Assembly (NCBI GenBank): GCA_012729055.1
Contig: JAAYDW010000037.1
Span: forward strand, 1 to 55,027
Origin: Deltaproteobacteria bacterium
GTDB lineage: Bacteria > Desulfobacterota > Syntrophia > Syntrophales > Smithellaceae
Direction: 5' to 3'
Length of the DNA stretch: 55,027 nt
In this document: in pieces, positions 6,556 through 23,029 of the stretch
Numbering within the stretch: position 1 is the stretch's first letter
Layout: each line of letters begins with the position of its first letter
The notes under the pieces: generated by a model
What the model saw: only the letters and a program-made list of their open reading frames with translations
Told to the model about the DNA's origin: nothing
Database searches by the model: none
Position numbers and translations under genes: made by a program

Positions 6556-6842
6556 GAAACGGATCCTCCCCGCCGCTCTTCCAGTTTTTTGAGAATAGTC
6601 ACCAGATCTTTTTCCTCCTTGCAGACCTTCACGCACAGCGGCCGGTCCAGCCCCCGGCAGAGATCGCAGGCGAATCCGGCGGGTCCGTTTTCCTCCAGAA
6701 GCGCGACGATATAACCGGCGCCTTCTTCCTTCTCCAGAATCTTAATGCTCGATACCGACGGATTGTAAGAGCCGGTATGATGAAAGGAACAGAGCATTTC
6801 GCAGGTCCGGCAACCGCCGCAGCTCGGCATGTCTTGTTTCAT
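6552..6842 (-). CDS. Small two-cluster ferredoxin-like electron-transfer subunit
   Basis: A 96-residue cysteine-rich protein, probably the electron partner of the adjacent aldehyde oxidoreductase, whose start codon it overlaps. Cysteines fall in two sets: CGGCRTCEMLC (CxxCxxCxxxC) near the N-terminus and CDLC...CVKVC further on, enough for two [4Fe-4S] clusters in the arrangement of HycB/DmsB-type ferredoxin subunits. The ATG at 6842 has AAAGGA seven bases upstream; a longer in-frame start would reach 25 codons back into the aldolase gene and is unlikely. A lysine- and glutamate-rich C-terminus follows the second set. Confidence 0.75.
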   Translation of the reverse strand: MKQDMPSCGGCRTCEMLCSFHHTGSYNPSVSSIKILEKEEGAGYIVALLEENGPAGFACDLCRGLDRPLCVKVCKEEKDLVTILKKLEERRGGSVS

Positions 6843-7460: not shown

Positions 7461-8216
7461 CTATGGGTAAACCTGTTTAAAGGACACGCCCATTCCGTGG
7501 CCGGTGAGAATATGGTCCGCGCGCGCGAGAATTTTCTCCATGCTGTCGAACATCTCAAAGACGTTGACGTAGCGGCCCATCGGAGTGAAAGGCAGGCCGC
7601 GGTGCGTGTCCGGCTTCAGGTTTTCATCGGCGAACACGGCGTCGCCGGCAATCACATACGTACCCTGAGCGGTTTTAACCTCCACCGACTGGTGGCCGGG
7701 GCAATGGCCCGGCGTGGGGAAGAGCGTAATGAAATCGTTGTACCGGAACTCTCCGTCCACGGTCCGAAACGGCACGCCTGCAAAAGGAGCAACCACGCCC
7801 AGCTTTTTGGATTCGTAGGATTTGAAGTACAAAAGATGCGGATCGCGCGCAAAGGCCAGCTCCTTCGCGTGTACGTAAAAACGGGCATTGGTGAACAGTT
7901 TCATGTTCGAGCAATGGTCCCAGTGCAGATGCGTGAAAAAAACCGCATCGATGTCTCCGGGCGTGACGCCAAGTTTTTCCAGGTGTTCGTCAATCCGGAA
8001 TCCTTCCGGCTGATAGGATCCCCGGTGATGCCAGTCGGCCGTCTTGGTCTCGCTCATCCCGGTATCGACCAGCAGTTTCTCTTTTCCGTCCGTCACGAAA
8101 AACGCCCAGGTGGGAACCTCCACTTCCATACCATAGCCGTCGCCCGGCGTGATATAGGCGCCCTTGTCGAGCCGGATGAATCCTGTATTAAAAGGGTAGA
8201 TACGTACATCCATCAT
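7461..8216 (-). CDS. Metallo-beta-lactamase-fold hydrolase (lactonase-like)
   Basis: A 251-residue cytoplasmic protein with the dinuclear-metal motif THLHWDH (HxHxDH), a downstream TPGHCPGHQS His, the AGDAVF Asp and the final TGHG His. This pattern is that of the N-acyl-homoserine lactonase-like branch (AttM/AhlS type), which opens lactone rings. In a catabolic operon a lactone or thioester substrate is more likely than a quorum signal, but this is inference. No signal peptide. Start ATG has GAGGAAATGA before it. Confidence 0.85.
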   Translation of the reverse strand: MMDVRIYPFNTGFIRLDKGAYITPGDGYGMEVEVPTWAFFVTDGKEKLLVDTGMSETKTADWHHRGSYQPEGFRIDEHLEKLGVTPGDIDAVFFTHLHWDHCSNMKLFTNARFYVHAKELAFARDPHLLYFKSYESKKLGVVAPFAGVPFRTVDGEFRYNDFITLFPTPGHCPGHQSVEVKTAQGTYVIAGDAVFADENLKPDTHRGLPFTPMGRYVNVFEMFDSMEKILARADHILTGHGMGVSFKQVYP

Positions 8217-8230
8217 TCATTTCCTCATCG

Positions 8231-9466
8231 TCAGCGATTGTATTTTTTGAGCATGTCCATCATCCGCCTGAACGCCTCGCCGATAAAAGCGTCGTCGTTG
8301 ATATGGGCATTCATTTCATAAAGCTCGATATCTTTCCTCAACCCCGCTTTCAGAACCCGGATAAATTCCCGGTCCGCGGCGGGATCGTAAAAGGGCTTCC
8401 CCGGCGCGTTGGGTTCGGAAAATCCCCCAAGCGGTATCAGAATCTGAACGGGACCGATCGCCTTGTTGATCTTCCGGACGAGAAAGCGGGCGGCGGCCGC
8501 CATCTCGTCGGCCGTGGCCCGGACCAGCGTGATGTTGGCGTTGTGGATGATGTGCTTTCGTCTCTTCCAGCGCGGCGGCAGCTGTTCGTAGCCGCCTTGA
8601 CAGATGTAGTCGATGGCGCCCGGCGCCAGGATCCACGGCACCGCAATCTTCGCCAGGCTGTCCAGCCGTTCCCGGCCCGGAGCGAAAACGCCTTTGCCCA
8701 CTTCATCGACCACTTCATGGGTCGTCCAGTCCAGAACGCCGTCGAAGTACCCGCTGCGGGCCATCTCCTCCATGACGGTTCCGCCGGTTCCCGTCGCATG
8801 AAAGAGAATCATTTCCAGGCCCTGCTCTTCCAGGAGGCGCTTCATTTTCATGAGCCCCGGCGTAACGACGCCGAACGCAGTGGCGCCGATCACTTTTTTC
8901 TTTCCCTTCTGGATGGGGCGGTACGCCCTCACCATGCCCAGGAGGGCAGAAACCGCATTTTCCAGAAGGCGGGTAAAAACGTAGTTGAGGCCGAAGACGT
9001 CCGTGACGGACGGAAAAACGGCGATGTCCTTGGTGCGCAGAAAGGGGCGCAGATCTCCCGAAGCGATCGTACTCACCATGACTTTCGGAAATCCCAGCGG
9101 CAGCGGCTGCATGGCGGCCGTTCCCATTGCGGTGCCCTGGCCGCCGCCGAGCGCGATCACGCCCTGGATTTTGCCTTCCTGATACAGCTTTTCAACCCAG
9201 GCCGTAAGGCCGTCGGTCATGGTTTGGATGATTTTTCCCTTGTCGCGGGTTTCCACAAGGTCCGCCAGATTCCAGCCGGCTTTTTGAGCAACCTCCTCGC
9301 GGGAAATGTCTCCACGAACCAGCGGCCGGCCGAGCGGACCGGGATCGATCAGCATGGCGCGGCATCCGTTTTGCAAAACCAGATCCCTGATGTGAAGGCA
9401 CTCCTCCCCTTTGGTGTCGAGGGTGCCGATCACCAGAATTGTCTTTAAACCTTCACACCCAGACAC
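8231..9466 (-). CDS. Tm-1-like / UPF0261 family protein
   Basis: A 411-residue protein with the family opening TILVIGTLDTKGEE, the glycine-rich GVIALGGGQGTAMGTAAM, an MVSTIASGDLRPF stretch and the C-terminal LIPLGGFSEPNAPGKPFYDP. The plant homologue Tm-1 binds ATP and inhibits a viral replicase; bacterial members usually sit in catabolic operons and have no settled biochemical role. Its first codons overlap the end of the ABC ATPase gene by 22 bp, so translation is probably coupled. Confidence 0.85.
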   Translation of the reverse strand: MSGCEGLKTILVIGTLDTKGEECLHIRDLVLQNGCRAMLIDPGPLGRPLVRGDISREEVAQKAGWNLADLVETRDKGKIIQTMTDGLTAWVEKLYQEGKIQGVIALGGGQGTAMGTAAMQPLPLGFPKVMVSTIASGDLRPFLRTKDIAVFPSVTDVFGLNYVFTRLLENAVSALLGMVRAYRPIQKGKKKVIGATAFGVVTPGLMKMKRLLEEQGLEMILFHATGTGGTVMEEMARSGYFDGVLDWTTHEVVDEVGKGVFAPGRERLDSLAKIAVPWILAPGAIDYICQGGYEQLPPRWKRRKHIIHNANITLVRATADEMAAAARFLVRKINKAIGPVQILIPLGGFSEPNAPGKPFYDPAADREFIRVLKAGLRKDIELYEMNAHINDDAFIGEAFRRMMDMLKKYNR

Positions 9467-10161
9467 TGAACGACCTCATCCATCCTGCAGCTCAATTCGT
9501 CCAGTGTCCCGCACATGCGGATCTGGCCCTTTTCCATGATGTACGCCCGCTGATTGTCGCTGAGCCGCATGGCGATCTCCATGTGCTGCTCCACCAGCAT
9601 GATGGTTCTGCCGTCCTTCTGGAGCTGTTTGATGATTTCCATGATCTCATGCACGATCTTGGGCGCCAGCCCTTCGCTCGGTTCGTCGATCAGCATCAGC
9701 TTCGGCCGGCCCATCAGCGCCCGGGCGATGGTCAGCATCTGCTGCTCGCCGCCGGAGAGGTTGCCGCCCATATGCTTGATGCGTTCCTTGAGGCGCGGAA
9801 AATAAGCAAAGCACATCTCCAACAGGCCTTCCCGCTCGTCGGGCTTGGTGTGCATGAGCGATCCCAGCCGGAGGTTTTCCAGAACCGTCAGGTTGGGAAT
9901 TACCCGCCGGTCTTCCGGAATGAGAGAAATGCCCTTGCGGGAAATTTTGTGCGGCGCCTGACCCGCGATGTTGTCCTCGAGAAAAAACACCTTTCCGGAC
10001 TTCGGAGGCTGAACCCCCATGATGGTTTTCATTGTGGTGGTTTTCCCGACGCCGTTTCGCCCCAGAAGAACCACGATCTCGCCTTCCTTGACTTCCAGGG
10101 AAACCCCCTGCAGAATATGGCTGTAGCCATAATACGTATTTATATCTTCCAATCTTAGCAT
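9445..10161 (-). CDS. Branched-chain-amino-acid-type ABC transporter ATPase (LivF-like)
   Basis: Second ATPase of a HAAT-family importer, 238 residues. Walker A is GRNGVGKTT, the signature is LSGGEQQ, and Walker B is LMLIDEPSEGLAP. The opening MLRLEDINTYYGYSHILQGV and the short length are typical of LivF rather than LivG. It follows livG by 10 bp. HAAT importers in anaerobes take up many organic acids, including aromatic and short-chain carboxylates, so the name should not be read as substrate evidence. Confidence 0.93.
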   Translation of the reverse strand: MLRLEDINTYYGYSHILQGVSLEVKEGEIVVLLGRNGVGKTTTMKTIMGVQPPKSGKVFFLEDNIAGQAPHKISRKGISLIPEDRRVIPNLTVLENLRLGSLMHTKPDEREGLLEMCFAYFPRLKERIKHMGGNLSGGEQQMLTIARALMGRPKLMLIDEPSEGLAPKIVHEIMEIIKQLQKDGRTIMLVEQHMEIAMRLSDNQRAYIMEKGQIRMCGTLDELSCRMDEVVQCLGVKV

Positions 10162-10171
10162 GCTTCCACCT

Positions 10172-10906
10172 TTATCCGAGATAGACTCGCTGTACTTCTT
10201 CGTTATCGCTGACCTCGCGGGGGGTTCCCTCCGTCAGGGTTCTTCCCTCGTTCATCACCAGGATTTCCTCGGAAATGCTCATCACCACGCTCATGTCGTG
10301 CTCGACCAGAACAACGCTGAGGCCGAGCTCCGTGTTGAGCTTCTTGATCATCTCCGCGCACTGGTTCGTCTCGGCGCAGCTCATGCCCGCCGTCGGTTCG
10401 TCCAGAAGCAGAATCTCCGGCTTGGTGGCCAGGGCGATCCCGATTTCCAGATAGCGTCTTTCCCCGTGAGAGAGGGTCGACGCCGGCCAGTTTCTTTTTT
10501 CCTGCAAATCCACCTGCGTCATGATTTCTTCCGCCAGTTCGTTGAGCTCCCGGTAGGAGGCAGCCTGCCGCCAGAAATTGTAGGAGGTCTTCCGGACCTG
10601 GGCGGCAATGCGGATATTTTCAAAGACCGACAGATTCGGGAAAATGTGGTTGATCTGATAGGTCTTGACGACGCCCAGGCGGGACACCCGGTTCAGGGTG
10701 AGGCGGGAGATATCCTTGTCCTTCAAAAAGACTTTTCCTTTGGTCGGCAGATAGGCGCCCGCAATCAGGTTAAACAGGGTGGTTTTGCCGGCGCCGTTGG
10801 GTCCGATGATGGACTTGAGCTGACCTTTCTTCAAAACGAAATCCACTTCGTCCACGGCTTTGAGCCCGCCGAAGTACTTGCATATTTTTTCTGTCCGCAA
10901 CAACAT
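10172..10906 (-). CDS. Branched-chain-amino-acid-type ABC transporter ATPase (LivG-like)
   Basis: First ATPase of the same importer, 244 residues. Walker A GPNGAGKTTLFNLIAG, signature LSHGERRYLEIGIAL and Walker B ILLLDEPTAGMS are intact, and the C-terminus ends in EEVQRVYLG as LivG proteins do. I start at ATG 10906, which is preceded by GAAGGAGAG at the right spacing; an in-frame start five codons further upstream lacks this. The gene begins 16 bp after the permease stop. Confidence 0.93.
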   Translation of the reverse strand: MLLRTEKICKYFGGLKAVDEVDFVLKKGQLKSIIGPNGAGKTTLFNLIAGAYLPTKGKVFLKDKDISRLTLNRVSRLGVVKTYQINHIFPNLSVFENIRIAAQVRKTSYNFWRQAASYRELNELAEEIMTQVDLQEKRNWPASTLSHGERRYLEIGIALATKPEILLLDEPTAGMSCAETNQCAEMIKKLNTELGLSVVLVEHDMSVVMSISEEILVMNEGRTLTEGTPREVSDNEEVQRVYLG

Positions 10907-10921
10907 AAGACTCTCCTTCAC

Positions 10922-11908
10922 CTATTTACTGGCCCGTTTCATCCGGTAGGCCATCAGTTTTTCCTCCAGGGTTCCCATGATGCCTCCGGGGAAGAGCAGA
11001 ATGATGGCAACAAACATGGCGCCCACGAAAAGCTCCCAGCGGGGCGTAATCAAACTGATCGTGTTCTGGAGAAAAAGAAAGACGCCGACGCCGACCAGCG
11101 GACCGAGAAATGTTCCTTTGCCGCCGAGAATGGTCATCATCACCATTGTGCCCGACGTGAGCCAGAACAGCGTGGTCAGCGGCACGTAGCCGAGATAAAC
11201 CGTATTGAGCGATCCGGCCAGTCCCGCGTAAAACGCCGAAATGACGAGCGACCAGAATTTCACCATGGTCGTGTTGTAGCCGCAGGCTTTGGCCCGTTCC
11301 TCGTTTTCGCGGAAGGCCTGCAACAGCTTGCCGAAGGGCGACTGCAGGATGCGCCACGTCGCGAACAGCATGATGGCCGTGACCACCAGAACGAAGTAGT
11401 ACAGCGGCAGCGGCTTGCCCAGGGAAAAGGAAAAGATCGCCATCGTGGGGATATGCGTCAGGCCGTCCTCACCGCGGGTGATGTGCTTCAGCGGCGACAG
11501 CGCCATGAAGTAAAGCATCTGGGCGAACGCCAGGGAGATCATCGCGAAGTACACGCCTCTTTTCCGGATCGCCAGGGCGCCGATGAAACATGCCAGAAGC
11601 ATCGGGGCCAGGACGCCGGCCGCAATGCCGACGGGAAGGCTGGCATCCAGATAGCGGAACGCCAATCCGGAGCTGTAGGCGCCCAGGCCGAAATACGCGG
11701 CGTGTCCGAAGGAGAGAACACCCGTGTATCCCAAAAGCAGATTGAACCCCATTCCGAAAATCGCCCAGATGAGAATTTCCGTCGCCAGCGGCGTGGAAAG
11801 CACCAGGGGAAGAAACAGCAGAACAAAAATTGTTCCGTAGACGACTATCGGTTTGGGAGGTGCATGCAGTTCCTGCACTTTAGTTGCGTTTGTGTTATCG
11901 TTAACCAT
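10922..11908 (-). CDS. ABC transporter permease (LivM-like)
   Basis: Integral membrane subunit of the importer, about 328 residues with eight or more hydrophobic segments. The stretches GFNLLLGYTGVLSFGHAAYFG and REDPLGKLLQ-like SPFGKLLQAFRENEERAKACGY are the family hallmarks. Start chosen at ATG 11908 because GAGAGGAAAC precedes it; an in-frame start 14 codons upstream is possible. It pairs with the LivH-like permease to form the translocation pore. Confidence 0.92.
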   Translation of the reverse strand: MVNDNTNATKVQELHAPPKPIVVYGTIFVLLFLPLVLSTPLATEILIWAIFGMGFNLLLGYTGVLSFGHAAYFGLGAYSSGLAFRYLDASLPVGIAAGVLAPMLLACFIGALAIRKRGVYFAMISLAFAQMLYFMALSPLKHITRGEDGLTHIPTMAIFSFSLGKPLPLYYFVLVVTAIMLFATWRILQSPFGKLLQAFRENEERAKACGYNTTMVKFWSLVISAFYAGLAGSLNTVYLGYVPLTTLFWLTSGTMVMMTILGGKGTFLGPLVGVGVFLFLQNTISLITPRWELFVGAMFVAIILLFPGGIMGTLEEKLMAYRMKRASK

Positions 11909-12083
11909 GCTCAATGTTTCCTCTCTCTCAATGCAAATCGAGCTTTGCAAACAAATCTGAAATCAAACATGAAAGATCCTTTTTCTGTGACGCTGCGCCG
12001 GGTCGCCTCCCCGGGGAGCAGCGGTACGTTTCCTTCATTACATTCCTGCGCCGCAGGTCGCAGCGTTAAAAAACTGGGCCTGT

Positions 12084-12965
12084 TTATTCGCGGCCCTGTT
12101 CTCCAAAGAGCCCCCTCGGTCTGACCAGCAGGATCAGGGCCATGCAGAAATACATGGACACCGAAGAATACTCGCCGGCGACAAAAGCGGTGAACGCGAC
12201 GACCAGGCCGATCAGAAGTCCGCCGACGATCGCCCCGCCCAGCGATCCGAGTCCGCCCACAACGGTGACGACGAAGGCTGTCATGGTCATGTCCACGCCC
12301 ATGTCCGGGGTGGCCGACATCATGGGCGCCGCAATGGCGCCGGCCAACGCCGCCAGGCCCACGCCAAGGCCGAAGCCGAATGTCCAGATCCGGGAAACGT
12401 TAATCCCGAGGGTCTGCACCATCAGGCTGTCCCGGGTGGACGCGCGGATAATCATGCCCAGATCGCTTCTCTTGAGAAAGAGCCACAGAGAGATCAGCGC
12501 CACCAGCGTAAACAGAATGATGAACAGGCGGTAACCGGGAAGAATGATGGAGCCCAGCACCAGGGTGCCGCTCAGCGCTTCCGGATAGTTAACCGGTTTC
12601 CCGATCAGGCCGAAGATGATCTTGATGAGATCCGGAATGGCCACGGAAAGACCGAAGGTGAGAAGGAGCGGCAACAAGGGATCTTTCCCGTACAGGGGCT
12701 TCAGAAACAGGAACTCCACGATCATTCCGACGATTCCCACAATCACGACGGCGCTCACCAGCCCCACGACAAAACTGCCCGACAGCGATATCATGACGAA
12801 GACGGCGTACGCCCCCAGCATGGCAAACGTGCCGTGCGCGAAGTTCACGACGTCCAGAAGGCCGAAGATGATCGACATCCCGCTTGAGAGAAGCACGAAG
12901 ATGCATCCCAGGGCAATTCCGAAAAAAAACTGCATTGCAATAACATTCCAAGGAATCTCGAACAT
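12084..12965 (-). CDS. ABC transporter permease (LivH-like)
   Basis: Second membrane subunit, 293 residues, with the LivH features GLLDVVNFAHGTFAMLGAY near the N-terminus and VVGGLGSLGGAIVGGLLIGL near the C-terminus. It is separated from the LivM-like gene by about 175 bp, the widest gap inside the operon. That gap holds the palindrome CTCCCCGGGGAG near 12008 but no ORF I can support. Confidence 0.93.
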   Translation of the reverse strand: MFEIPWNVIAMQFFFGIALGCIFVLLSSGMSIIFGLLDVVNFAHGTFAMLGAYAVFVMISLSGSFVVGLVSAVVIVGIVGMIVEFLFLKPLYGKDPLLPLLLTFGLSVAIPDLIKIIFGLIGKPVNYPEALSGTLVLGSIILPGYRLFIILFTLVALISLWLFLKRSDLGMIIRASTRDSLMVQTLGINVSRIWTFGFGLGVGLAALAGAIAAPMMSATPDMGVDMTMTAFVVTVVGGLGSLGGAIVGGLLIGLVVAFTAFVAGEYSSVSMYFCMALILLVRPRGLFGEQGRE

Positions 12966-13045: not shown

Positions 13046-14305
13046 TCATTTGGGAAGTTTTATATTGATAAAGGGCAGCTTTTTGGCGTTGTCCGCGCAG
13101 GACATGATGATGGAATCACCGGGGATCTCCGCGACGATATCCGCGAGGTCCCAGCCCTTGGCCTTGGCGCCCTTGCCTTTGACCAGAACATAGCTCTGGA
13201 CGCGCTGACGATCACAGCCTCGCACATATTCCGGACCTTTGGTCAACTGGTACTTGATATCCTGCATGGCTTCCATGATCTTCTTCTTGTCGGACACGGT
13301 CCCGGCCTTTTCAATGGCCATAAACAGAATGTTGGTGGCGACATAGCCGCATTCTCCATCCTGCTCGGGGGGCGCGCCGTACTTCTTTATGAACTTGTCG
13401 ACGAACTTCTTGGCTCCGGGATATTTGTCCCGCAGTTTGTAGTAGAAGCTCATCCCGCCGATCACGTTTTCGTTATACGCGGATCCCAGCTCTTTGATGG
13501 TATGCTGGGCCGTCTTGGTGCAGAAAATTTTCATGTTCTTGGTAAGCCCCAGCTCGCTGGCCTGTTTGATGGCCGCGGTCTGATCGGCGCCCAGGTTGTT
13601 CATAACGATGAAATCGGGTTTTGCCGCCAGAACTTTGGCGTAGTAGGTGGAAAAGTCGGTCGTTCCCAGCGGAACGTAAACGTTGCCCAGGAACTGTCCG
13701 CCCATCTGCTGGCTCTGCCAGAGCCAGCCTTCGAGCAGGCTGTGCCCCCAACGGTAATCGGCCGTGATGGCGAACCATTTCTTGCCGACATTTTTGAAAG
13801 CATACTGAGCCACCGCCAGCGATGCCGCGTACGGAACCACCATGAAAGCGGCGCCGTATTCGCACTGGTCGGACCCCAGAACCATATCCGACATGCAGTA
13901 GGCCACATAGGGCGTCTTCGTCTTGCAGGCGAACTCATTCATGGCCAGAGAAATCGACCCCGAAAGCGTTCCGCCGAAGAAGTCGCACTTTTCTTCTTCG
14001 ACAAGTTCCTTGGCTCTGCGGATGGCGACGTTGCCTTTGAGCTCGTCATCCCGGTGAACCCAGATAATCTTGTGCCCCAGAACGCCGCCCTTGGCATTCC
14101 ACTCTTCCACGGCCATTTCGGTGGCCCGCATCTGGTCCCGACCCAGGACGGCATAGGCGCCCGTCAGGGGATGCATCGTTCCGTACTTGATGGTCTTCTG
14201 CTGCGCCGAAGCCGTCGCCGGCAGAGCGGTCAAAAGGCCGGCGCTGATCAACCCGACCAGAAGCATCGCCAGACCGATCTGGCCCAATCGTTTTACATGT
14301 TGCAT
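13046..14305 (-). CDS. Periplasmic branched-chain-amino-acid-type solute-binding protein
   Basis: A 419-residue LivJ/LivK-type binding protein. The N-terminus has a positively charged stretch, a hydrophobic core and an AxA-like cleavage site (ATASAQQ), so it is exported. The mature part opens with TIKYGTMHPLTGAYAVLGRDQMRA, a periplasmic-binding-protein type 1 signature. Start has AAAGGAGG. It determines the substrate specificity of the importer. Homologues of this length in anaerobes often bind carboxylates rather than amino acids; the ligand cannot be deduced here. Confidence 0.93.
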   Translation of the reverse strand: MQHVKRLGQIGLAMLLVGLISAGLLTALPATASAQQKTIKYGTMHPLTGAYAVLGRDQMRATEMAVEEWNAKGGVLGHKIIWVHRDDELKGNVAIRRAKELVEEEKCDFFGGTLSGSISLAMNEFACKTKTPYVAYCMSDMVLGSDQCEYGAAFMVVPYAASLAVAQYAFKNVGKKWFAITADYRWGHSLLEGWLWQSQQMGGQFLGNVYVPLGTTDFSTYYAKVLAAKPDFIVMNNLGADQTAAIKQASELGLTKNMKIFCTKTAQHTIKELGSAYNENVIGGMSFYYKLRDKYPGAKKFVDKFIKKYGAPPEQDGECGYVATNILFMAIEKAGTVSDKKKIMEAMQDIKYQLTKGPEYVRGCDRQRVQSYVLVKGKGAKAKGWDLADIVAEIPGDSIIMSCADNAKKLPFINIKLPK

Positions 14306-14372: not shown

Positions 14373-15140
14373 TTACTGAATTGTCCACCCACCGTCGACC
14401 GCGAGGACATGGCCCGTGATCATGTTGGCGAGGTCGGAGGCCAGAAACAAAGCGGCGCTCGCAATCTCCTCCGACGTAACCATTCGACCCAGGGGAATAC
14501 TTGCGAGCACATACTTCTTAAATTCCTCATCCTGGAACATTTGCGCAGTAAAGCGTGTTTCCACAAACGTGGGCGCAACGGCGTTGACCACGATGCGGTG
14601 TTTCGCCCATTCCAGCGCAAGAGTACGCGTCAGCTGGTTCACCCCTCCCTTACTGGAGCAATACGCAGCGCGCAGGGGTAAAGCCACAGAGCCCGCTTGC
14701 GAGGAAAGGTTGATAATCTTTCCGCCACCTCCTCTCTCTATCATGTGTTTGCCTGCCGCCTGGGAGACGAAGAACATGGCTCGCAAATTGATGTTCATGA
14801 TGTCGTCCCAGTTCTTCTCCGTCACTTCTTCCGATTTCTGAGGCCGGTTGATGCCGGCGGAGTTCACCACGATATCGATTCTTCCCATCCGGCTTACCGC
14901 GGCATTCACCAGCGTCTGGGGAGCGCCGGGGGCGGTAATGTCCAAAGCCTTGTAGCCGGCTTCGATCCCCTCGGCTTCCATGGCGCCGGAGATGTCCTTG
15001 AGCTTGTCCTCAAAGAGATCGTGCAAAAAAACCCTGGCGCCGGCGGCGCCGAACATCCGGGCAATGGCTCCGCCCAGACCTCCGGCCGCGCCCGTGATCA
15101 GGGCGACCTTGTCTTTCAATGATATTTCCACAGGTTTCAT
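14373..15140 (-). CDS. SDR family NAD(P)-dependent oxidoreductase
   Basis: A classical short-chain dehydrogenase of 255 residues: cofactor motif TGAAGGLGGAIA, NSAGINR, the catalytic Ser in NLSSQAG and Tyr/Lys in YCSSKGG, and the C-terminal GHVLAVDGGWT. In a cluster with an acyl-CoA dehydrogenase and a MaoC hydratase it is a natural candidate for the 3-hydroxyacyl (or other hydroxyl) oxidation step, though this is inference. Start has AAAGGAAG. Confidence 0.9.
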   Translation of the reverse strand: MKPVEISLKDKVALITGAAGGLGGAIARMFGAAGARVFLHDLFEDKLKDISGAMEAEGIEAGYKALDITAPGAPQTLVNAAVSRMGRIDIVVNSAGINRPQKSEEVTEKNWDDIMNINLRAMFFVSQAAGKHMIERGGGGKIINLSSQAGSVALPLRAAYCSSKGGVNQLTRTLALEWAKHRIVVNAVAPTFVETRFTAQMFQDEEFKKYVLASIPLGRMVTSEEIASAALFLASDLANMITGHVLAVDGGWTIQ

Positions 15141-15237: not shown

Positions 15238-15936
15238 CTACTCTTCCAGGATCGCCACTGCGCGCAGCGGAGACCCTGTGCCCTGCCGGATCTTCAGGGG
15301 AAGCGCAATGAAGGTAAAGCGCTTGCCCGCCACCTGGTCCAGATTGCAGAGATTCTCGATATGGGTAATGCCGCGTTCGGCGCAGACCGTGTGGCAGGGA
15401 TAGGTCTTGTCATACCACATGTCCGGACTCGAGGAATCGACGCCGAAATTCACGCAGCCCTGGTCGATGATGAACTCGGTCCCTTCCCGGTCCAGCCCGG
15501 GATAATCGGTCATGTATTCCGGCTTTCCGTAGTAGCGGTTGTACTGGGCCGTGTAGAAGAGCACCGTGTCACCCTTGCGGATATCCAAATTCCATTTTTT
15601 AAGTTCGTCTTCTATTTTTTTCCGCCCGAACTGGGTCTTCTGCGGAATGTCGCTTACATCGAGGCAAATGGCCGAAGTAATACATTTATCCAAAGACAAC
15701 TGATCGATGGACTCGGCCTTGGGATCGCGCGAAAGATGGCTTACCGCATCGATATGGGTCGGACCGTGATCGCAAAACATGATGCCGCGGGTCTCATAGG
15801 AAAATCCGGTTCCAAGCTGCCGTTGACATTCTTCGTGGGACAGATGCGTCCATATAACCGTTTTGAGGTGTCCCGGATAAACAGGCATCCCCTGGTAAAT
15901 CTCCTGTGTAAGATCAATTATTTTGCCTTTGAACAT
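15238..15936 (-). CDS. Cyclase family protein (kynurenine-formamidase-like metal hydrolase)
   Basis: A 232-residue member of the cyclase/arylformamidase family, metal-dependent amide, lactone or ring hydrolases. It opens with IIDLTQEIYQGMPVYPGH and carries the metal motif CDHGPTHIDAVSHL (HxGTHxDxxxH pattern with Pro for Gly-Thr spacing), followed by GDTVLFYTAQYNRYYG. Strong AAAGGAGG before the ATG. Position between the acyl-CoA dehydrogenase and SDR genes suggests it opens a ring or lactone in the same pathway. Confidence 0.88.
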   Translation of the reverse strand: MFKGKIIDLTQEIYQGMPVYPGHLKTVIWTHLSHEECQRQLGTGFSYETRGIMFCDHGPTHIDAVSHLSRDPKAESIDQLSLDKCITSAICLDVSDIPQKTQFGRKKIEDELKKWNLDIRKGDTVLFYTAQYNRYYGKPEYMTDYPGLDREGTEFIIDQGCVNFGVDSSSPDMWYDKTYPCHTVCAERGITHIENLCNLDQVAGKRFTFIALPLKIRQGTGSPLRAVAILEE

Positions 15937-16124: not shown

Positions 16125-17264
16125 CTATTTCAGAAGCTCCCGGGAAATGATCAGCTTCATGATCTGATTGGTGCCTTCGTAGATTTGCGTGATCTTCGCG
16201 TCGCGCATCATGCGCTCAAAGGGATACTCCCGCATGTAGCCGTAGCCGGCCGCGACCTGGAGCGCGTCGGTCGTCACTTTCATGGCCGTGTTCGACGCCA
16301 CCAGCTTGGACGCTGCAGAAAGATAACTTTTGTTGGGATTGTCTTCGTCGATGAGCTGCGCGGCCTGATACACAAGGCTGCGGGCCGCATCGACTTCCGC
16401 CGCCATATCCGCGAGCATCCAGCCGATGCCCTGGAACTGGCCGATCGGCTTGCCGAACTGGACCCTTTCCTTGGAATACTTGATGGCCAGTTCCAGCGCG
16501 CCGCGGGCCACGCCGCAGGCCTGAGCGCCGATGACCGGCCGCGAGGTGTCCAGGGTTTTCATCGCGTAGACGAATCCCTTGCCTTCCTGGCCGATCAGAT
16601 TTTCCGCGGGGATCTCCACGTCTTCAAAGACGAGTTGTCCGGTGGGAGATCCCTTGATGCCCATTTTCTTTTCCCATTTCGCCACGGAAAATCCCGGCGA
16701 ATCGGTCGGCACGATAAAGGCGCTGATGCCTTTCACGCCCTTGGAGGCGTCCGTCATGGCGAAAACGGTGATGTAGTTTGCCACCGGGCCGTTCGTAATG
16801 AAGCATTTGGTTCCGTTGATGATGTACTTGTCGCCTTTTTTGACCGCCCGCGTCGCCATCGCTCCGGAATCGGAGCCGGCGCCCGGTTCGGTGAGCCCGT
16901 AAGAAATGATGGCTTCGCCGGAGGCGATGATCGGTCCGTATTTCTTTTTCTGTTCTTCGGTGCCGCCGATCAGGATCGGCTCCCAGCCCAGCGCCTGCCC
17001 CTGAACGATCAGCGAGGAACTGACGCATGCCACCGCGATTTCCTCCACGGCCAGACAGGTAAAGAGGTGTCCCTGTTTGTTGCCGCCGTATTCCTCCGGA
17101 ATGGCGAGTCCGAGAAGACCCATGTCCTGAAAGACCTGCTTCAGATCCCAGGGGAATTCTTCTTTCTCATCGATTTCGGCCGCCCGCGGCCGCACCTTAT
17201 CGTCGACCATTCGGCGCAGCTGATCGACAAACATTTTTTGATCTTCATTATGCAGTAAATACAT
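16125..17264 (-). CDS. Acyl-CoA dehydrogenase
   Basis: FAD enzyme that makes the alpha,beta-double bond of an acyl-CoA and passes electrons to ETF. The 379-residue protein has the three acyl-CoA dehydrogenase domains with YGLTEPGAGSD in the middle domain, GYGYMREYPFERMMRDAKI near the end and the catalytic Glu in QIYEGTNQI. Start chosen at ATG 17264 (GGAGAGG upstream) over an in-frame GTG four codons earlier. It follows the MaoC gene by 97 bp. No ETF genes are in the window. Acyl chain specificity is not clear; the sequence resembles short-chain/butyryl-CoA types. Confidence 0.93.
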   Translation of the reverse strand: MYLLHNEDQKMFVDQLRRMVDDKVRPRAAEIDEKEEFPWDLKQVFQDMGLLGLAIPEEYGGNKQGHLFTCLAVEEIAVACVSSSLIVQGQALGWEPILIGGTEEQKKKYGPIIASGEAIISYGLTEPGAGSDSGAMATRAVKKGDKYIINGTKCFITNGPVANYITVFAMTDASKGVKGISAFIVPTDSPGFSVAKWEKKMGIKGSPTGQLVFEDVEIPAENLIGQEGKGFVYAMKTLDTSRPVIGAQACGVARGALELAIKYSKERVQFGKPIGQFQGIGWMLADMAAEVDAARSLVYQAAQLIDEDNPNKSYLSAASKLVASNTAMKVTTDALQVAAGYGYMREYPFERMMRDAKITQIYEGTNQIMKLIISRELLK

Positions 17265-17361
17265 TCGCCTCTCCACTTATAATGTTGATGGGTTTCACAT
17301 GGCCGGGAATTACCCGTCTCGTTGCCCGCGAGAACCCGTCGCCGGGCTCCATGCGTCGCAC

Positions 17362-17820
17362 TTATTTCCGGTCCTGGATACGTTTCATCATGATGGACTT
17401 GTAGCCCGACTGCACTACGACATCATTCTGATTCAGGACCTCCAGATACAACGTAACCACCCCCCGATCCTGCTTGCTTTTGCTTTCCTTCTTTTCAGAG
17501 CATTTGAATTTCACCCGGATGGTGTCTCCAAAAAAGATCGGCGCCTGAAACTTCCAGTCGTTGACGCTTAAAAAGGCGATGGCGGTCTGGTCCAGAAAGC
17601 CCGTCCGGAAAAGCAGGCCGTGGGAAATTCCCAAAACCAGAAGGCCGTGGGCGATTCTCTGACCGAATTGATTTGCCTTGGTGGCTTCCGCGCTGGTGTG
17701 CAGCTCATTGTAGTCGCCGCTCGTGGCGGCAAACATGACCACGTCGGTTTCCGTGATGGTGCGGGTAGGCGTTACAAATTCTTCGTTGAGTGTCCAATCA
17801 TCAAAATACTTGCCGTTCAT
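17362..17820 (-). CDS. MaoC-like (R)-specific enoyl-CoA hydratase
   Basis: A 152-residue hot-dog-fold protein with the hydratase-2 motif SGDYNELHTSAEAT containing the catalytic Asp and His. It would hydrate an enoyl-CoA, the step after the acyl-CoA dehydrogenase encoded next. ATG 17820 has AAGGAAG upstream; an in-frame start 17 codons earlier adds a basic, unconserved stretch. It is the first gene of the long minus-strand operon and lies about 90 bp downstream of a consensus sigma-54 promoter. Confidence 0.88.
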   Translation of the reverse strand: MNGKYFDDWTLNEEFVTPTRTITETDVVMFAATSGDYNELHTSAEATKANQFGQRIAHGLLVLGISHGLLFRTGFLDQTAIAFLSVNDWKFQAPIFFGDTIRVKFKCSEKKESKSKQDRGVVTLYLEVLNQNDVVVQSGYKSIMMKRIQDRK

Positions 17821-17916
17821 CTTCTTGCACTTCCTTTTCGTAATAATCCAAACGATGGGGCGCAAAAACACACGCTTTTATAATCGTTTGTCCATGTTCT
17901 TCCGCTTTTGGCTTTT

Positions 17917-17932
17917 TGCAACATACGTGCCA
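17917..17932 (-). promoter_or_regulatory. Sigma-54 promoter of the catabolic operon
   Basis: Minus strand reads TGGCACGTATGTTGCA, matching the full -24/-12 consensus TGGCACG-N4-TTGCA at every defined position with exact spacing. Transcription would start near 17905, leaving a leader of about 85 nt to the MaoC start. An activator of the right class is encoded 4 kb away. Confidence 0.88.
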
Positions 17933-18662
17933 TGCATAAAACACCGCTGCGAGGGCAAAAAAGCGGAAAATTTGCGTCGCGGGTCCATTTTTCTTCGGAC
18001 ACAAAACCTTTCTCTGCCAGGACAGGAGCACGACGGGAAGAGTCGTTTTATCAGCAAGATGAAAACAATGACGGAGACGGCAAAACTCCAGTTAAGCGGA
18101 GGAACCGGCAAAAAAGGATTTTGAATCGGGCATTCCTGAAATTTGCGAGAATGCAGCAGGAATCCCGACGGAAAACGCTGAACATGCAGGAAAAATCCTC
18201 GATAAAGCGAGCCCGCGTCATATCTGTTGCGCATACGCAACAAAACGTCCGTGTTTGTTTTTCTAATAAAAACTTTATTTTCTGATAGTTAACGGATTTT
18301 ACGTTTTAAAGCCCGCTTGCGTTGCAAAAGGTCACCAAAACTGCCTCTGCCGGAATTTACCCCTATTCGCGCATTAATACAGGTAATTCCCGAAAGCGCC
18401 TGTTGCATTATTGAACCACTTTGACCAACTCTCTGATCTTCCCGACCGTTGCGGGAAGCGTTGCGTTGCCGCCAACCTGAGGCGATGCACTATTATAGTT
18501 TAATCAGAAGAAAGCGCAAGAGAGAAAAAAATTTTCCGGCGCGGCACGCTTGCTGCCGAACACAAACGGCAACTGCTGAACGGCCGGATCACCTGTTTTC
18601 CGGCAGGCCCGGTTGCGCAGCGCCTGCAGAGAGCCGTTGTGTCCCTTCCCCTCCAAAGGTTC
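17933..18662. other. Large divergent regulatory intergenic region
   Basis: Together with its two flanking promoters and leaders this gene-free stretch covers about 940 bp. The short open frames in it, on both strands, lack good ribosome-binding sites and recognisable motifs. It contains several TTGCG/TGTTGC elements (near 17971, 18143, 18225, 18316, 18402, 18448 and 18612), as expected if upstream activator sites for the sigma-54 promoters lie here. I see no tRNA or riboswitch. Confidence 0.6.
18225..18242. promoter_or_regulatory. Perfect inverted repeat, candidate activator site
   Basis: TGTTGCGCATACGCAACA is a perfect 7-bp dyad with a 4-bp centre, size and symmetry typical of an upstream site for a dimeric Fis-type HTH of a sigma-54 activator. 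It is about 300 bp upstream of the MaoC-operon promoter and 440 bp upstream of the CoA-transferase promoter. Confidence 0.5.
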
Positions 18663-18678
18663 TGGCATCAATTATGCT
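18663..18678 (+). promoter_or_regulatory. Sigma-54 promoter of the CoA-transferase gene
   Basis: TGGCATCAATTATGCT keeps the invariant GG and GC elements in exact spacing, and most flanking consensus bases (TGGCA and TGCT). The start of transcription would be near 18690, about 70 nt before the coding start. Confidence 0.75.
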
Positions 18679-18759
18679 AAGGCAGCTACAGCGAGGGGAG
18701 CAATTTTTTTAGACCCCTGCCAAACCGATGACGATTACTATTCAGAGGTGGAGGAACTG

Positions 18760-20052
18760 ATGAATTGGGAAAAAATTTATAAATCGAAACTGGTCAGCGC
18801 CGAGGAAGCTGTGTCTCATATTAAATCGGGAGACCGCGTCGTGGTCGGTCACGCTGCCGGAACAACCGAACTTTTACTGAAAACGATGGTCGACCATAAG
18901 GAGCGTTATCGCAACGTCGAAATCGCGCACCAGGTCGCCATGGGCCATTCTTTGTATTGTCTGCCGGAAAACCAGCCCCACTTTATTCACAACTCCCTTT
19001 TCGCCGGGGCTGGTTCAAGGCAGGCGATCAACGAAGGGCGCGCCGTGTTCACCGCCGTCCACAACGGCGATTTGCCGCGATTATTTACCGACAGAATCCT
19101 TCCTGTGGATGTCACGCTCTGCATGCTGTCCGTGCCGGACAAACACGGTTACTGCTCTTTCGGCGTATCCGTGGACTACACGAAGCCGGCCGCGGAAAGC
19201 TCCAAAATGATCATTGCGGAAGTCACGCCGAACATGCCGCGCGTTTTGGGAAATTCCTTCATTCATGTTTCGAAGATCGACTACATTGTCGAATGCGATA
19301 CGGCGCCGCTGATCCTGAAGCCGCCGAAAATCTCCGCGGTCGACGAAGCGATCGGCGGCTACTGCGCCGAACTGATCAAAGACGGGGATTGCCTGCAGCT
19401 CGGCATCGGCGCGGTTCCGGACGCCGTCCTGACCTTTCTCAAGCATAAAAAGGATCTCGGCATCCACACGGAAATGTTTTCCGACGGTGTGGTGGATCTT
19501 GTGAATTGCGGCGTCGTCAACTGCGCCCGAAAGAATTACCACCGCGGAAAGATGGTCGCCTCGTTCTTCATGGGAACGGAGAAGCTTTACAAATTCATCG
19601 ACGACAACGCCTTTGTCGAAGCCTATACCTTCGACTACGTGAATTGTCCGGAAGTCATTTCGAGAAACGACAACATGGTTTCCATCAACTCCGCTCTCCA
19701 GGTGGACTTTACGGGCCAGGTTGCTTCCGACACCATCGGCTACAAGCAGTACAGCGGCACCGGCGGGCAGGCGGATTTCGTCCGCGGCGCCACGCATTCC
19801 AAAGGCGGCCGGTCCATTCTGGCCTTCCCGTCCACGGCGCAGGGCGGCAAGACCTCCCGGATCGTTCCCCATCTGGATGAGGGATCCGTCGTCACCACGA
19901 CCCGCGCGGACGTGCACATCATCATCACGGAATACGGCATCGCCGATCTGCGGGGCAAATCCTTCCCCGAACGCGCCAAGGCGCTGATTTCCATCGCCCA
20001 TCCGGATTTCCGGGAAGATTTATGGCGCGAGTATCACAAGTATCACCGCTGA
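18760..20052 (+). CDS. 4-hydroxybutyrate/acetyl-CoA transferase (Cat2 family)
   Basis: A 430-residue family I-type CoA-transferase of the acetyl-CoA hydrolase/transferase group. It follows the clostridial 4-hydroxybutyrate CoA-transferase pattern closely along its whole length: MNWEKIYKSKLVSAEEAV at the start, CSFGVSVDYTKPAAES, LQLGIGAVPDAVL, the catalytic Glu238 in HTEMFSDG, and GTGGQADFVRGATHSKGG. It would move CoA from acetyl-CoA to a short (hydroxy)carboxylate. ATG 18760 has GGAGG nine bases upstream; an in-frame extension upstream crosses the promoter and is rejected. It is controlled by its own sigma-54 promoter and is divergent from the beta-oxidation-type operon. Confidence 0.92.
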   Translation: MNWEKIYKSKLVSAEEAVSHIKSGDRVVVGHAAGTTELLLKTMVDHKERYRNVEIAHQVAMGHSLYCLPENQPHFIHNSLFAGAGSRQAINEGRAVFTAVHNGDLPRLFTDRILPVDVTLCMLSVPDKHGYCSFGVSVDYTKPAAESSKMIIAEVTPNMPRVLGNSFIHVSKIDYIVECDTAPLILKPPKISAVDEAIGGYCAELIKDGDCLQLGIGAVPDAVLTFLKHKKDLGIHTEMFSDGVVDLVNCGVVNCARKNYHRGKMVASFFMGTEKLYKFIDDNAFVEAYTFDYVNCPEVISRNDNMVSINSALQVDFTGQVASDTIGYKQYSGTGGQADFVRGATHSKGGRSILAFPSTAQGGKTSRIVPHLDEGSVVTTTRADVHIIITEYGIADLRGKSFPERAKALISIAHPDFREDLWREYHKYHR

Positions 20053-20076
20053 TCCCCGTCACGGGAGTCGGCTGTT

Positions 20077-20118
20077 AAAAAAACGTGCGGGGAGTTCTCC
20101 TGCGAAGCTCCCCGCACG
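20077..20118 (-). terminator. Terminator-like hairpin oriented on the minus strand
   Basis: An 11-bp perfect stem (CGTGCGGGGAG with CTCCCCGCACG, 13-nt loop) follows the CoA-transferase stop by about 30 bp. The U-run (seven A on the plus strand) lies on its left side, so as an intrinsic terminator it points against the flanking plus-strand genes. It may still end or protect the CoA-transferase mRNA. Confidence 0.5.
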
Positions 20119-20315
20119 GATACAAATCCTGATCTGCCGTCAGGAACAAAAATCCGGCGCGCGACTCTTGACCTCGGAGAAACGCGCAATAAATTACCTG
20201 AAAGTCTTGGTGCATTTCTTCTTCCGGACCCGCACATCCGCCAAGGTCACTGTCGGCAGAGTTTTTTCACAACTCATTCCAACTTGATTTTATTACAAAA
20301 AGGGGGGCTTCACCT

Positions 20316-21584
20316 ATGAGGATTTACAAAAATGGCGGCCACAGGTTGTTTGAAAACGATCCGGAGACGGCAAAAGTCGTCTCAGAAATGCTTTCCGATC
20401 TGGAGAAAAACGGAATGGATGCCGTGAGAAAGTACAGCAATACCTTTGACGGGTGGAATCCGGAAAACTTTGAGCTCGATGAAAAGCAGATCCAGGAGGC
20501 GATCAGCCGTTTGGACCCGCAAACCATTGAGGACACGGATTTTTGCCAGGCCAATGTCCGCTCTTTTGCTCAGGCGCAACTGGCCACTTTGCTGCCCCTG
20601 GAAGTGAGCCCCAGGCCCGGGGTCATTCTGGGGCATCGGCACATTCCGGTTGGAACCGTAGGCAGCTACATTCCCGGAGGGCGTTACCCGATGTTCGGTT
20701 CAGCGCAGATGAGCATCATCCCCGCCAAGGTCGCGGGAGTAAAAAACGTCTATGCCTTTACGCCGCCGGTAAAGGGCCTGGGGTATTTCCCGGCGACCAT
20801 CAATGCCATGAAAAAAGCAGGCGCAGATCGAATTTTTATCCTGGGCGGCGTTCCGGCATTTGCGGTCATGGCCTTCGGAATGGGGATTGTCGAGCCGGTC
20901 GATATTCTCTGCGGCGCGGGAAATAAATTCGTCGCGGAAGCCAAACGCCAGCTCTTCGGCCGCTGCGGCATCGACCTCCTGGCGGGACCTACGGAAATAC
21001 TGGTTATTGCGGACGACACGGCCGATCCCGCTATTGTTGCCTGCGACCTTTTGGGCCAGGCCGAGCATGATCCGAACAGCGGCATAGCCCTGATCTGTCT
21101 CAGCGAAAAATTTGCCGAGGCGTGCCTTGAAGAACTGAACAGGCAGCTTGCCGTCCTGCCGACAAAAGACGTAGCTGAAATTTCCTGGGCCAATAACGGC
21201 ATCCTTTATATCGCCTCCGACCGGGACGAAGCCATTGCGATCAGTGATGCGTATGCCCCGGAGCATGTGGAAATCCTCGCGGAAGATGAAGACTACTATT
21301 TGAACCGGTTGACGAATTACGGCTCCCTGTTCATCGGCGAAGAAACAACCGTCGCCTATGGCGACAAGTGCATCGGAACCAACCATATCCTGCCCACGAG
21401 CCGGGCGGCCCGGTATACCGGCGGCGTATGGGTGGGGAAATTTTTAAAGACGGTCACCTATCAGCGCGCGACGCGCGAGGCAAGCCGGCAGATCGGGGAA
21501 GTCACCGAGCGGCAATGCCGGATCGAAAGAATGCTGGCGCACGGCTTGACCGCCAAAATGCGCATTGAAAAATACAGCGACTGA
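20316..21584 (+). CDS. Histidinol-dehydrogenase-family NAD-dependent alcohol dehydrogenase
   Basis: A 422-residue protein of the HisD fold, which oxidises a primary alcohol through an aldehyde to a carboxylate with two NAD. The Zn ligands are in place (Gln248 and His251 in GQAEHDPNS, Asp350 in AYGDK, His409 in LAHGL), as are the catalytic pair Glu316-His317 in YAPEHVEI and His357 in GTNHILPT. There are no other his genes nearby; it follows a CoA-transferase in a catabolic module. Divergent family members such as the sulfopropanediol dehydrogenase HpsN act on non-histidine alcohols, and that kind of role fits better than histidine synthesis. AGGGGGGC precedes the ATG. Function in this pathway is inferred. 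Confidence 0.8.
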   Translation: MRIYKNGGHRLFENDPETAKVVSEMLSDLEKNGMDAVRKYSNTFDGWNPENFELDEKQIQEAISRLDPQTIEDTDFCQANVRSFAQAQLATLLPLEVSPRPGVILGHRHIPVGTVGSYIPGGRYPMFGSAQMSIIPAKVAGVKNVYAFTPPVKGLGYFPATINAMKKAGADRIFILGGVPAFAVMAFGMGIVEPVDILCGAGNKFVAEAKRQLFGRCGIDLLAGPTEILVIADDTADPAIVACDLLGQAEHDPNSGIALICLSEKFAEACLEELNRQLAVLPTKDVAEISWANNGILYIASDRDEAIAISDAYAPEHVEILAEDEDYYLNRLTNYGSLFIGEETTVAYGDKCIGTNHILPTSRAARYTGGVWVGKFLKTVTYQRATREASRQIGEVTERQCRIERMLAHGLTAKMRIEKYSD

Positions 21585-21589
21585 AGGTC

Positions 21590-21606
21590 GTCCGGATTTT
21601 CCGGAC
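21590..21606. terminator. Short symmetric hairpin between convergent genes
   Basis: GTCCGGA-TTT-TCCGGAC forms a 7-bp stem with a three-base loop between the converging HisD-like gene and activator gene. It has no U-run, so it is at best a weak bidirectional terminator. Confidence 0.35.
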
Positions 21607-21643
21607 ACCAAGGCAGGAAAAGCGGATCACGCGGTGCGGATTT

Positions 21644-23029
21644 TTAGACGAGCCGATGTTTCTGGTATTTCTGAAGCTTGCGCGTGATGGTGGAATGGTT
21701 CATTTTTAAAACGGCGGCCGCCTTGCGCGCGCTGCCGTACTTGTTGATCGCGCTCCGAATGAGCGCGATTTCTTTTTCCTCCAGATACTTCCTCAGCGGC
21801 ACATCCGGATCGATTTCCGAATTCAGGTCCCCGCGAATCTCGCGGGGAAGGTCATCCGGATCGATCTGCATCTTGTCTGTGACCACCGAGATCCGCTCAA
21901 TCACATTGGCCACTTCCCGGACATTTCCGGGCCAGGCATAGGCCAGCAGGCAATCCATTGTTTCCTTTGTGACGTACTTTTTCTTCTTGTACTTCTGATT
22001 GAAATAATTGATGAAAAACGTCACCAGCATCGGAATGTCCTCTTTTCGCTCCCGCAGGGGCGGAACCACCACGGAAACCACGTTCAGGCGGTAGTACAAA
22101 TCGGCCCTAAACTGGTTTTTGGCCACCATCTCCTTGAGATCCATATTCGTGGCGCACACCACCCGCACATTCACCTTTTTAGGCACAGTGCCGCCGACCC
22201 GGACGATTTTAAAATCCTGCAGCGCCCGCAGCAGTTTGGGCTGCAGCGAGAGGGGCAGGCACTCCACTTCATCCAGAAAAATCGTCCCTTCGTCCGCCAG
22301 TTCGAAAAGGCCGATCTTGCCCTCTTTTTTCGCCCCCGTGAACGCGCCCGCTTCGTAGCCGAACAACTCGCTCTCCAGCAGGGTCTCCGGAATGGCGCCG
22401 CAATTGATCTTGACCAGCACCCCCTTGGCGTACCGGGGCGACATTTTGTGCACCTCTTCCACCAGGCGATCCTTGCCGACGCCCGTTTCGCCGTAAAAAA
22501 GCACGGTGGCGTCCGTCTTGCTGACCCGCTCCACCAGGTTGCAGACATCGTACATCGCCCTGGACACCACCACAAAATCCTTGCCGAAGGAACTCGATTC
22601 CTGCATGGTCTGGAGTTTTTCCTTGTACGCCATCGCCATCTGCATCGAATGCTCCACCTGCTCGTGCAGCTTGATGAGCTCGGTCATGTCCCGGTCGTTG
22701 GTGACGACCATGATGATATTGCCCTGATCGTCGAAAATGGGATTGCCCGTCACCAGAATCTCTTTTCCCGACCGGAGCTTTTGGCGGATGGTGGCCCGTT
22801 CCCCCGTTTCAATCACCTTCAACGTGACGCTTTGATCGATAAATCCTTCGTTGACGAGATCGCGCATGTTGCGCCCGATCACCTCTTCCCTCCTGATGCC
22901 CGTCATGTTCTCGTAAGCTGAATTGACCATCAAAGTGTTGGCCTGCCCGTCGGTGATGTAAATGCCGTCAAAGGACGATTCGATAATCGCCTCGATCTGA
23001 TGTTTACTGAGCAGGGGAGTCTTCGGCAT
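21644..23029 (-). CDS. PAS-domain sigma-54-dependent transcriptional activator (NtrC/RocR type)
   Basis: A 461-residue enhancer-binding protein. An N-terminal PAS domain (about residues 10-130: FDGIYITDGQANTLMVNSAYENMTG onward) replaces the usual receiver, so it senses a ligand or redox state directly. The AAA+ domain has Walker A GETGVGKD, the sigma-54 contact loop GAFTGA, and Walker B TIFLDEVECL; Arg fingers lie in the VVPPLRERKEDIP region. A Fis-type helix-turn-helix (KYGSARKAAAVLKMNHSTITRKLQ) closes the protein. The only sigma-54 promoters I see in the window are the two divergent ones 3-5 kb away, so it is their likely activator. A Gly-Val instead of Gly-Thr in Walker A is unremarkable. 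Confidence 0.93.
   Translation of the reverse strand: MPKTPLLSKHQIEAIIESSFDGIYITDGQANTLMVNSAYENMTGIRREEVIGRNMRDLVNEGFIDQSVTLKVIETGERATIRQKLRSGKEILVTGNPIFDDQGNIIMVVTNDRDMTELIKLHEQVEHSMQMAMAYKEKLQTMQESSSFGKDFVVVSRAMYDVCNLVERVSKTDATVLFYGETGVGKDRLVEEVHKMSPRYAKGVLVKINCGAIPETLLESELFGYEAGAFTGAKKEGKIGLFELADEGTIFLDEVECLPLSLQPKLLRALQDFKIVRVGGTVPKKVNVRVVCATNMDLKEMVAKNQFRADLYYRLNVVSVVVPPLRERKEDIPMLVTFFINYFNQKYKKKKYVTKETMDCLLAYAWPGNVREVANVIERISVVTDKMQIDPDDLPREIRGDLNSEIDPDVPLRKYLEEKEIALIRSAINKYGSARKAAAVLKMNHSTITRKLQKYQKHRLV

Follow-up and report, generated by a model that had tools for sequence, protein, structure and literature searches.

The window analysed here (the whole 55,027-nucleotide stretch, bases 1-55027 of contig C9 in a 3.36-Mb genome of 113 contigs) carries a catabolic island headed by a MaoC-like hydratase gene, a divergently oriented CoA-transferase gene and, just beyond, the gene of a sigma-54-dependent activator. 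Comparison of sequences makes it probable that this activator, acting on three palindromic boxes, opens both of the divergent sigma-54 promoters that head the two transcription units, and that the regulatory unit was rewired from operons of gamma-aminobutyrate (GABA)/4-hydroxybutyrate metabolism. The island is also present in two of the 19 other same-genus genomes among the listed relatives, the sisters G006 and G015, with 70-93% protein identity to the window.

Divergent sigma-54 promoters

The MaoC-like hydratase gene (17362-17820, minus strand, ATG at 17820) is the first of a long operon and is separated by a 939-bp intergenic region from the CoA-transferase gene (18760-20052, plus strand). 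The -24/-12 consensus used was TGGCACG-N4-TTGCW. The site TGGCACGTATGTTGCA (17917-17932, minus strand), ahead of the MaoC-headed operon, fits it without mismatch, and TGGCATCAATTATGCT (18663-18678, plus strand), ahead of the CoA-transferase gene, has three mismatches; the gap between them is 730 bp. An earlier reading of this DNA from its letters alone, the original prediction, had placed a full-consensus promoter ahead of the MaoC operon and another ahead of the CoA-transferase, facing away from each other across about 730 bp. Both are borne out, the second, unremarkable on its own, by its conservation in both sisters. The genome scan for the same promoters that it proposed returned four exact consensus sites (2+2), against none for the reversed-pattern control. 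The other three exact sites lie at C9:130469, C17:5077 and C97:14983 (loci L185, L186 and L187), and a sigma-54 activator is encoded about 2.3 kb from the one at C17:5077. RpoN itself is encoded by the genome (one PF04552 match).

The consensus match alone was discarded as proof of the CoA-transferase-side promoter, because sites with up to three mismatches are no commoner in the window than expected by chance (70 found vs a shuffle mean of 89.15, i.e. no enrichment), and conservation was used instead. The same count is what speaks for the alternative that housekeeping promoters drive the operons and that at least one of the -24/-12 sites arose by chance. Against this, the sites are conserved amid unconserved DNA: invariant columns in the three-genome alignment number 11 of 15 in the MaoC-side site and 12 of 16 in the CoA-transferase-side site, compared with 161 of 713 in the rest of the intergenic region, and the GG of the -24 and the GC of the -12 element are kept at both sites in all three genomes. 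The distances to the start codon are also similar (81, 82 and 75 on the CoA-transferase side; 96 and 94 on the MaoC side, with 44 in G015, where the MaoC gene is broken). With an approximate weight matrix for -24/-12 elements, the two sites are the two top matches in the intergenic region of the window, the best being equalled in 0 and the second in 5 of 1000 shuffles, and the homologous pair ranks first and second in G006 and G015 too (0 to 5 of 1000 shuffles as good across the three regions). Chance matching is thus scarcely credible. Since the orthologous intergenic regions keep both sites while their surroundings have diverged, the CoA-transferase-side site is accepted as a putative -24/-12 promoter, a status that it owes to conservation only. 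No such site was found ahead of the activator, HisD-like, aldehyde:ferredoxin oxidoreductase (AFOR) or cyclase gene, where the best candidates have three or four mismatches.

The activator and its predicted three-box array

The activator gene (21644-23029, minus strand) codes for a 461-aa protein with a PAS domain (PF00989), an AAA+ sigma-54 domain (PF00158) and an HTH_50 domain (36.9 bits vs a cut-off of 27). The motor motifs GETGVGK (Walker A) and GAFTGA are intact, and together with the DNA-binding HTH they are the features of an enhancer-binding protein, in agreement with the earlier description of a sigma-54 activator with intact GAFTGA and a PAS sensor encoded just beyond the promoters. 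Its scores stay below the cut-offs of the PrdR equivalog NF041552 (408 bits vs 795) and of the TyrR equivalog NF008085 (236 bits vs 576).

The intergenic alignment of the three genomes brought out an 18-bp palindromic pattern, TGKTGC-N6-GCAMCA, which occurs three times between the promoters of the window. The predicted box 1, TGTTGCGCATACGCAACA (18225-18242), has no mismatch; box 2, CGTTGCAAAAGGTCACCA (18320-18337), 95 bp from box 1, has two; box 3, TGTTGCATTATTGAACCA (18401-18418), 81 bp from box 2, has one. In G006 the boxes start at 1144 (2 mismatches), 1241 (0) and 1323 (0) of locus L128, and in G015 at 1488 (1 mismatch), 1584 (1) and 1665 (0) of L130, which gives spacings of 97/82 and 96/81 bp. 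The array, 194 bp long in the window, is kept together with the activator and offers candidate binding sites upstream of the promoters. Box 1 is the only exact match to the pattern in the 3.36-Mb genome, which suggests that the activator is dedicated to this locus. A weak fourth box-like site of unclear conservation (18141-18158, 8 of 10 core bases) lies 84 bp left of box 1, on the MaoC-promoter side.

In the mechanism that we infer, activator dimers would bind the three boxes at 18225, 18320 and 18401, and the PAS domain would sense a metabolite signal and relieve repression, upon which an AAA+ hexamer would assemble. By looping, the hexamer would then reach sigma-54 RNA polymerase poised at the two -24/-12 sites, so that both promoters open, and the output would be a co-transcribed 14-gene MaoC-to-GldA operon leftward and the CoA-transferase gene rightward. 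Because both sites are conserved in diverged DNA, the boxes are conserved between them, the activator is linked to both transcription units in three of three genomes with the window-type arrangement and RpoN is encoded, the locus is best regarded as a dedicated sigma-54 regulon. It had been predicted to be substrate-responsive as well, and for this part of the claim the PAS domain and the comparison with GabR (see below) suggest that it may be so.

Related activator loci

Across 155 genomes of the order, nine activators were retrieved at E <=1e-150, namely those of the window and both sisters and six at 59-61% identity, and extending the search to 395 genomes from the phylum added four at 58-59%. 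The independent test set therefore comprises ten activator loci (58-61% identity) from other families. A CoA-transferase with 69-72% identity to that of the window is encoded near the activator in seven of them; the three without a visible one are G125 and G115, whose contigs end too early, and G436, with none in the 14 kb examined.

The boxes of the test loci mostly read TGATGC-N6-GCATCA. Arrays were scored with positions 3 and 16 free and the spacing set from the window and sisters, with about five bases of slack and a maximum of 30. At the trained spacing, triples scoring 24-28 were found in six of the ten loci (G111, G113, G114, G125, G115 and G355), their scores being matched by none of 500 shuffles per locus, and their spacings are 94-100 and then 78-82 bp. 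The triple of G282 scored 23 (0/500 shuffles), rising to 28 at free spacing (102/103), and that of G129 scored 21 (10/500), rising to 26 (87/79). No clear triple was detected in G436 (20, 85/500 shuffles) or G221 (19, 263/500); in the latter the AbfD gene is not next to the region that was scored. Box 3 lies 107-110 bp from the best -24 element in seven of the eight array-bearing test loci and 96 bp in G282. When the order of the two spacings was swapped, 10 of 13 regions scored lower, by 1 to 4. A background scan of both strands of the window and 143 fetched loci (1,828,897 bases; L001-L042 and 15 short loci, most of which repeat array loci, were set aside) revealed no triple of at least 24 with each box at least 7/10 away from such activator loci; its 15 rows collapse to nine separate places, of which six are test loci.

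The activators themselves differ in two respects. The window-type proteins lack roughly the first 100-125 residues of the G111, G113, G129 and G114 activators, the sequences compared at the N-terminus (those extracted from G125 and G115 are incomplete). The recognition helix reads NHSTITRKL in the window and DHSTITRKL in both sisters, and in six other aligned activators DPSTLTRKL (three), DSSTITRKL, DPTSLTRKM and HPSTLTRKL (one each). Box position 3 shifts in parallel with the helix, being G/T in the window type and mostly A in the relatives.

The array of the relatives precedes a single operon, of which the CoA-transferase gene is a member, and the window genome encodes other candidate activators (27 PF00158 matches, 26 above 200 bits). 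Both facts would fit an arrangement in which the activator drives the CoA-transferase promoter only, as in GABA-type loci, while another activator serves the MaoC-side promoter. This is unlikely, given that activator, array and both units occur together in three of three genomes with the window-type arrangement and that the array is placed between the promoters, at 292/244, 279/362 and 291/244 bp from the MaoC-side and CoA-transferase-side sites, respectively (in the window, from box 1 and box 3).

Several observations weigh against control of both promoters by the activator through a three-box array. The window-type arrangement is known from three genomes only, its box 2 is degenerate, and its array-to-promoter distances of 292 and 244 bp exceed the 107-110 bp of most relatives. 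Positions 3 and 16 were freed only once the first six test loci were known; with the original, stricter pattern, in a single-box test, G114 alone of six loci clearly beats shuffles (0/2000; others 142-1028/2000). The strict pattern with up to two mismatches has 456 genomic occurrences vs 236 for the reversed control, which makes the loose pattern non-specific. Swapping the spacings costs the window only 1 and raises the scores of G129, G436 and G221. Within the long operon, gaps of 188 and 228 bp leave room for other promoters, weak sigma-70-like sites occur on the minus strand at 16133-16104 and 4632-4605, and the region contains 12 sigma-70-like sites vs 8.7 expected.

A more far-reaching and rather doubtful proposal is that the boxes, at about 96 and then about 80 bp, act as a transferable ruler that positions one activator hexamer by DNA wrapping, with one dimer per box. 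Such a ruler would have varied by no more than a few bases while the regulator shed its first N-terminal domain, acquired a new preference at box position 3, moved to a different island and took its place between divergent promoters, over twice as far from them as is usual. Helical phasing was also considered; spacings of 87, 94-100 and 102-103 bp have no common phase.

The CoA-transferase and probable regulatory rewiring

The closest solved relatives of the window CoA-transferase are 4-hydroxybutyrate CoA-transferases (3eh7, 514.8 bits; 3gk7, 431.9 bits), and its score with the butyryl-CoA:acetate CoA-transferase model TIGR03948 stays below the cut-off (356.8 bits vs 674.8). In the test locus of G111 the genes follow the order AbfD, CoA-transferase, iron-type alcohol dehydrogenase, GABA transaminase and substrate-binding protein. 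The name AbfD follows the best solved relative of the first protein, 1u8v, the dehydratase/isomerase of gamma-aminobutyrate metabolism (688 bits), and the transaminase passes the cut-off of the GABA transaminase model TIGR00700 (543 vs 506.65); the alcohol dehydrogenase passes no family-model cut-off. The order from AbfD through CoA-transferase and alcohol dehydrogenase to transaminase recurs in G221 and G355, and we take such an operon to be the anaerobic route from GABA via 4-hydroxybutyrate to crotonyl-CoA.

Most of the related activators go with operons of this GABA/4-hydroxybutyrate type. The activator and CoA-transferase of the window thus look like a GABA/4-hydroxybutyrate regulatory pair rewired onto another catabolic island, and would either derive from the corresponding pair of AbfD operons or have a common ancestor with it. 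The direction would be from GABA-type loci to the window island because the former are spread more widely, a judgement made from distribution. An AbfD gene (67% identity to that of G111) directly follows the GldA-like gene in G015, and at C9:116173 the window genome encodes an AbfD relative (65%). The intermediate that the island supplies to the CoA-transferase step is probably a hydroxy-acyl or C4 compound.

The window end (53633-55027) and the adjoining bases 55028-58832 of C9 (locus L184) contain a second AbfD-like gene of the HpaB family (54%), with genes for a further sigma-54 activator (456 aa) and for a 759-aa protein ahead of it. The second AbfD-like gene and its neighbouring activator possibly form a separate activator/dehydratase pair.

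Gene content of the island

The minus-strand run from the MaoC-like to the GldA-like gene comprises 14 genes, from 17820 down to 3501. The MaoC-like gene is followed by genes for an acyl-CoA dehydrogenase (16125-17276; best NCBIfam model AcrC, below cut-off), a PF04199 cyclase/arylformamidase-like metal hydrolase (15238-15936), a short-chain dehydrogenase (14373-15140) and a Liv-type transporter consisting of a substrate-binding protein (13046-14305), two ATP-binding cassette permeases and two ATPases (LivH, M, G and F, 9445-12965). Further along are genes for a UPF0261/Tm-1-like protein (8231-9466), a metallo-beta-lactamase-fold, lactonase-like hydrolase (7461-8216), a class II aldolase/decarboxylase family protein (6865-7449), an AFOR family protein (4633-6636) and the GldA-like alcohol dehydrogenase (3501-4601), the last window gene present in the sister loci. 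No minus-strand terminator-like site was found in the gaps between the MaoC-like and GldA-like genes. In G015 the MaoC gene (L129:15890-16200) matches over about 40 codons and has a stop at about codon 52; its promoter and downstream genes persist.

The core of the island consists of the PF04199 hydrolase, short-chain dehydrogenase, Liv transporter, UPF0261 protein, lactonase-like hydrolase and class II aldolase, in varying order. At other loci it is found with neither activator nor CoA-transferase in the DNA examined (L172-L173 and L121; most of the core in L174 and L131). The PF04199 hydrolase has 93% identity in each sister and 91% in G455, which belongs to another family; these values suggest a key enzyme of the pathway encoded by the island. 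Its gene was tried as a locus marker in the 395 genomes; eight others were found, with no activator or CoA-transferase match in the flanking DNA examined, and they allowed no promoter test. G128, with core genes on a 13-kb contig, was likewise of no use for testing promoters.

The HisD-like gene and the limits of the regulon

Between the CoA-transferase and activator genes lies a local insertion, a HisD-like dehydrogenase gene (20316-21584, plus strand) related to HpsN. Were it part of the regulon, the module could represent the sulfopropanediol (DHPS) pathway: HpsN enzymes are the best solved relatives of its product, and the core operons of G455, G433 and UBA2219 encode a relative with 55-58% identity. 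HpsN is marked by His126 in the motif G-R-Y-A/S-H, and histidinol dehydrogenase has G-S-A-P-L at this place (PMC11382572). The window protein reads G-R-Y-P-M, with Met in place of His126, and the DHPS pathway was rejected on account of this missing histidine. The gene is also absent at the same place in G006 and G015 and is separated from the CoA-transferase gene by a strong hairpin without a T run (20084-20118, plus strand); the 118-nt stretch 20053-20170 folds at a z of -4.80, with 0 of 200 shuffles as stable. It has no good -24/-12 site of its own, the best having three mismatches. A DHPS module that includes this gene is accordingly quite improbable, and the HisD-like gene is probably outside the regulon. 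The original estimate of at least 15 genes holds for the 14 genes from MaoC to GldA-like plus the CoA-transferase; the HisD-like gene, which fell within the span then given, drops out.

The protein passes the TIGR00069 hisD cut-off (421.8 vs 243.8), though it lacks GSAPL, and is neither a typical HisD nor a typical HpsN; another HisD-family copy is encoded at C5. Relatives with up to 81% identity are found in many phyla. In a simple text search GRYPM appeared in 74 of 80 related loci from many phyla, the other six giving no answer, and a short-chain dehydrogenase is encoded just downstream in a number of GRYPM-type loci. This group possibly represents a third, uncharacterised branch. As a marker of the module the gene was discarded: in the DNA examined, only L120 and L121 of the 80 related loci show the Liv-transporter module, and the sisters are without the gene.

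Comparison with known systems

GabR of Bacillus thuringiensis resembles the window activator, by description only, in being a sigma-54 activator with the order PAS-AAA+-HTH (PMC4279683). It mediates PAS-gated activation of gabT, in the GABA pathway, with GABA and succinic semialdehyde as inducers, and its repression is relieved by deletion of the PAS domain (PMC4279683). Unlike the window array, its site gives a footprint of 96 bp that includes a 21-bp inverted repeat near gabT, and the text available describes no three-box array (PMC4279683); its target is gabT whereas that of the window activator would be a different catabolic island. The TyrR-like GcsR of Pseudomonas has three 18-bp palindromic sites per promoter region, and the TyrR box, TGTAAA-N6-TTTACA, shares the 6-N6-6 layout of the window boxes; however, the GcsR box differs in sequence (TGTAACG-N4-CGTTCCG), and its three sites fit inside a 200-bp probe, whereas the window array alone takes up 194 bp between divergent promoters (PMC4894688). 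NorR (PMC2941729) and AdhR (PMC7017808) are alike in site number, each of their three sites being important for activation, and in NorR the three are thought to seed the hexamer (PMC2941729); they differ in being GAF-containing activators (PMC2941729, PMC7017808). The PrdR and XanR (abfD) regulons of Clostridiales likewise involve sigma-54 activators tied to fermentation and abfD genes (PMC6615313). In that order 170 of 263 activators studied (65%) control a single operon, and multiple upstream activating sequences are usual, most of them 100-250 bp from the promoter (PMC6615313). PrdR boxes differ in having TGT and ACA with a 10-12-bp spacer (PMC6615313).

In the literature searched, as far as its text was available, neither a three-box array of the window type nor its activator family was found. 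Three-site enhancers as a kind of system are known from NorR, AdhR and GcsR; new are the array, its shared wide, fixed spacing and the GABA/4-hydroxybutyrate kinship. The locus looks like a natural example of regulatory rewiring, in which activator, CoA-transferase and enhancer array stay together and the rest of the pathway differs. The spacing of 94-100 and 78-82 bp common across families makes a set distance between boxes, beyond their number, a testable property. Sigma-54 control of abfD has been predicted in Clostridiales (PMC6615313), and the activators described here are a candidate regulator family for GABA/4-hydroxybutyrate fermentation outside that order.

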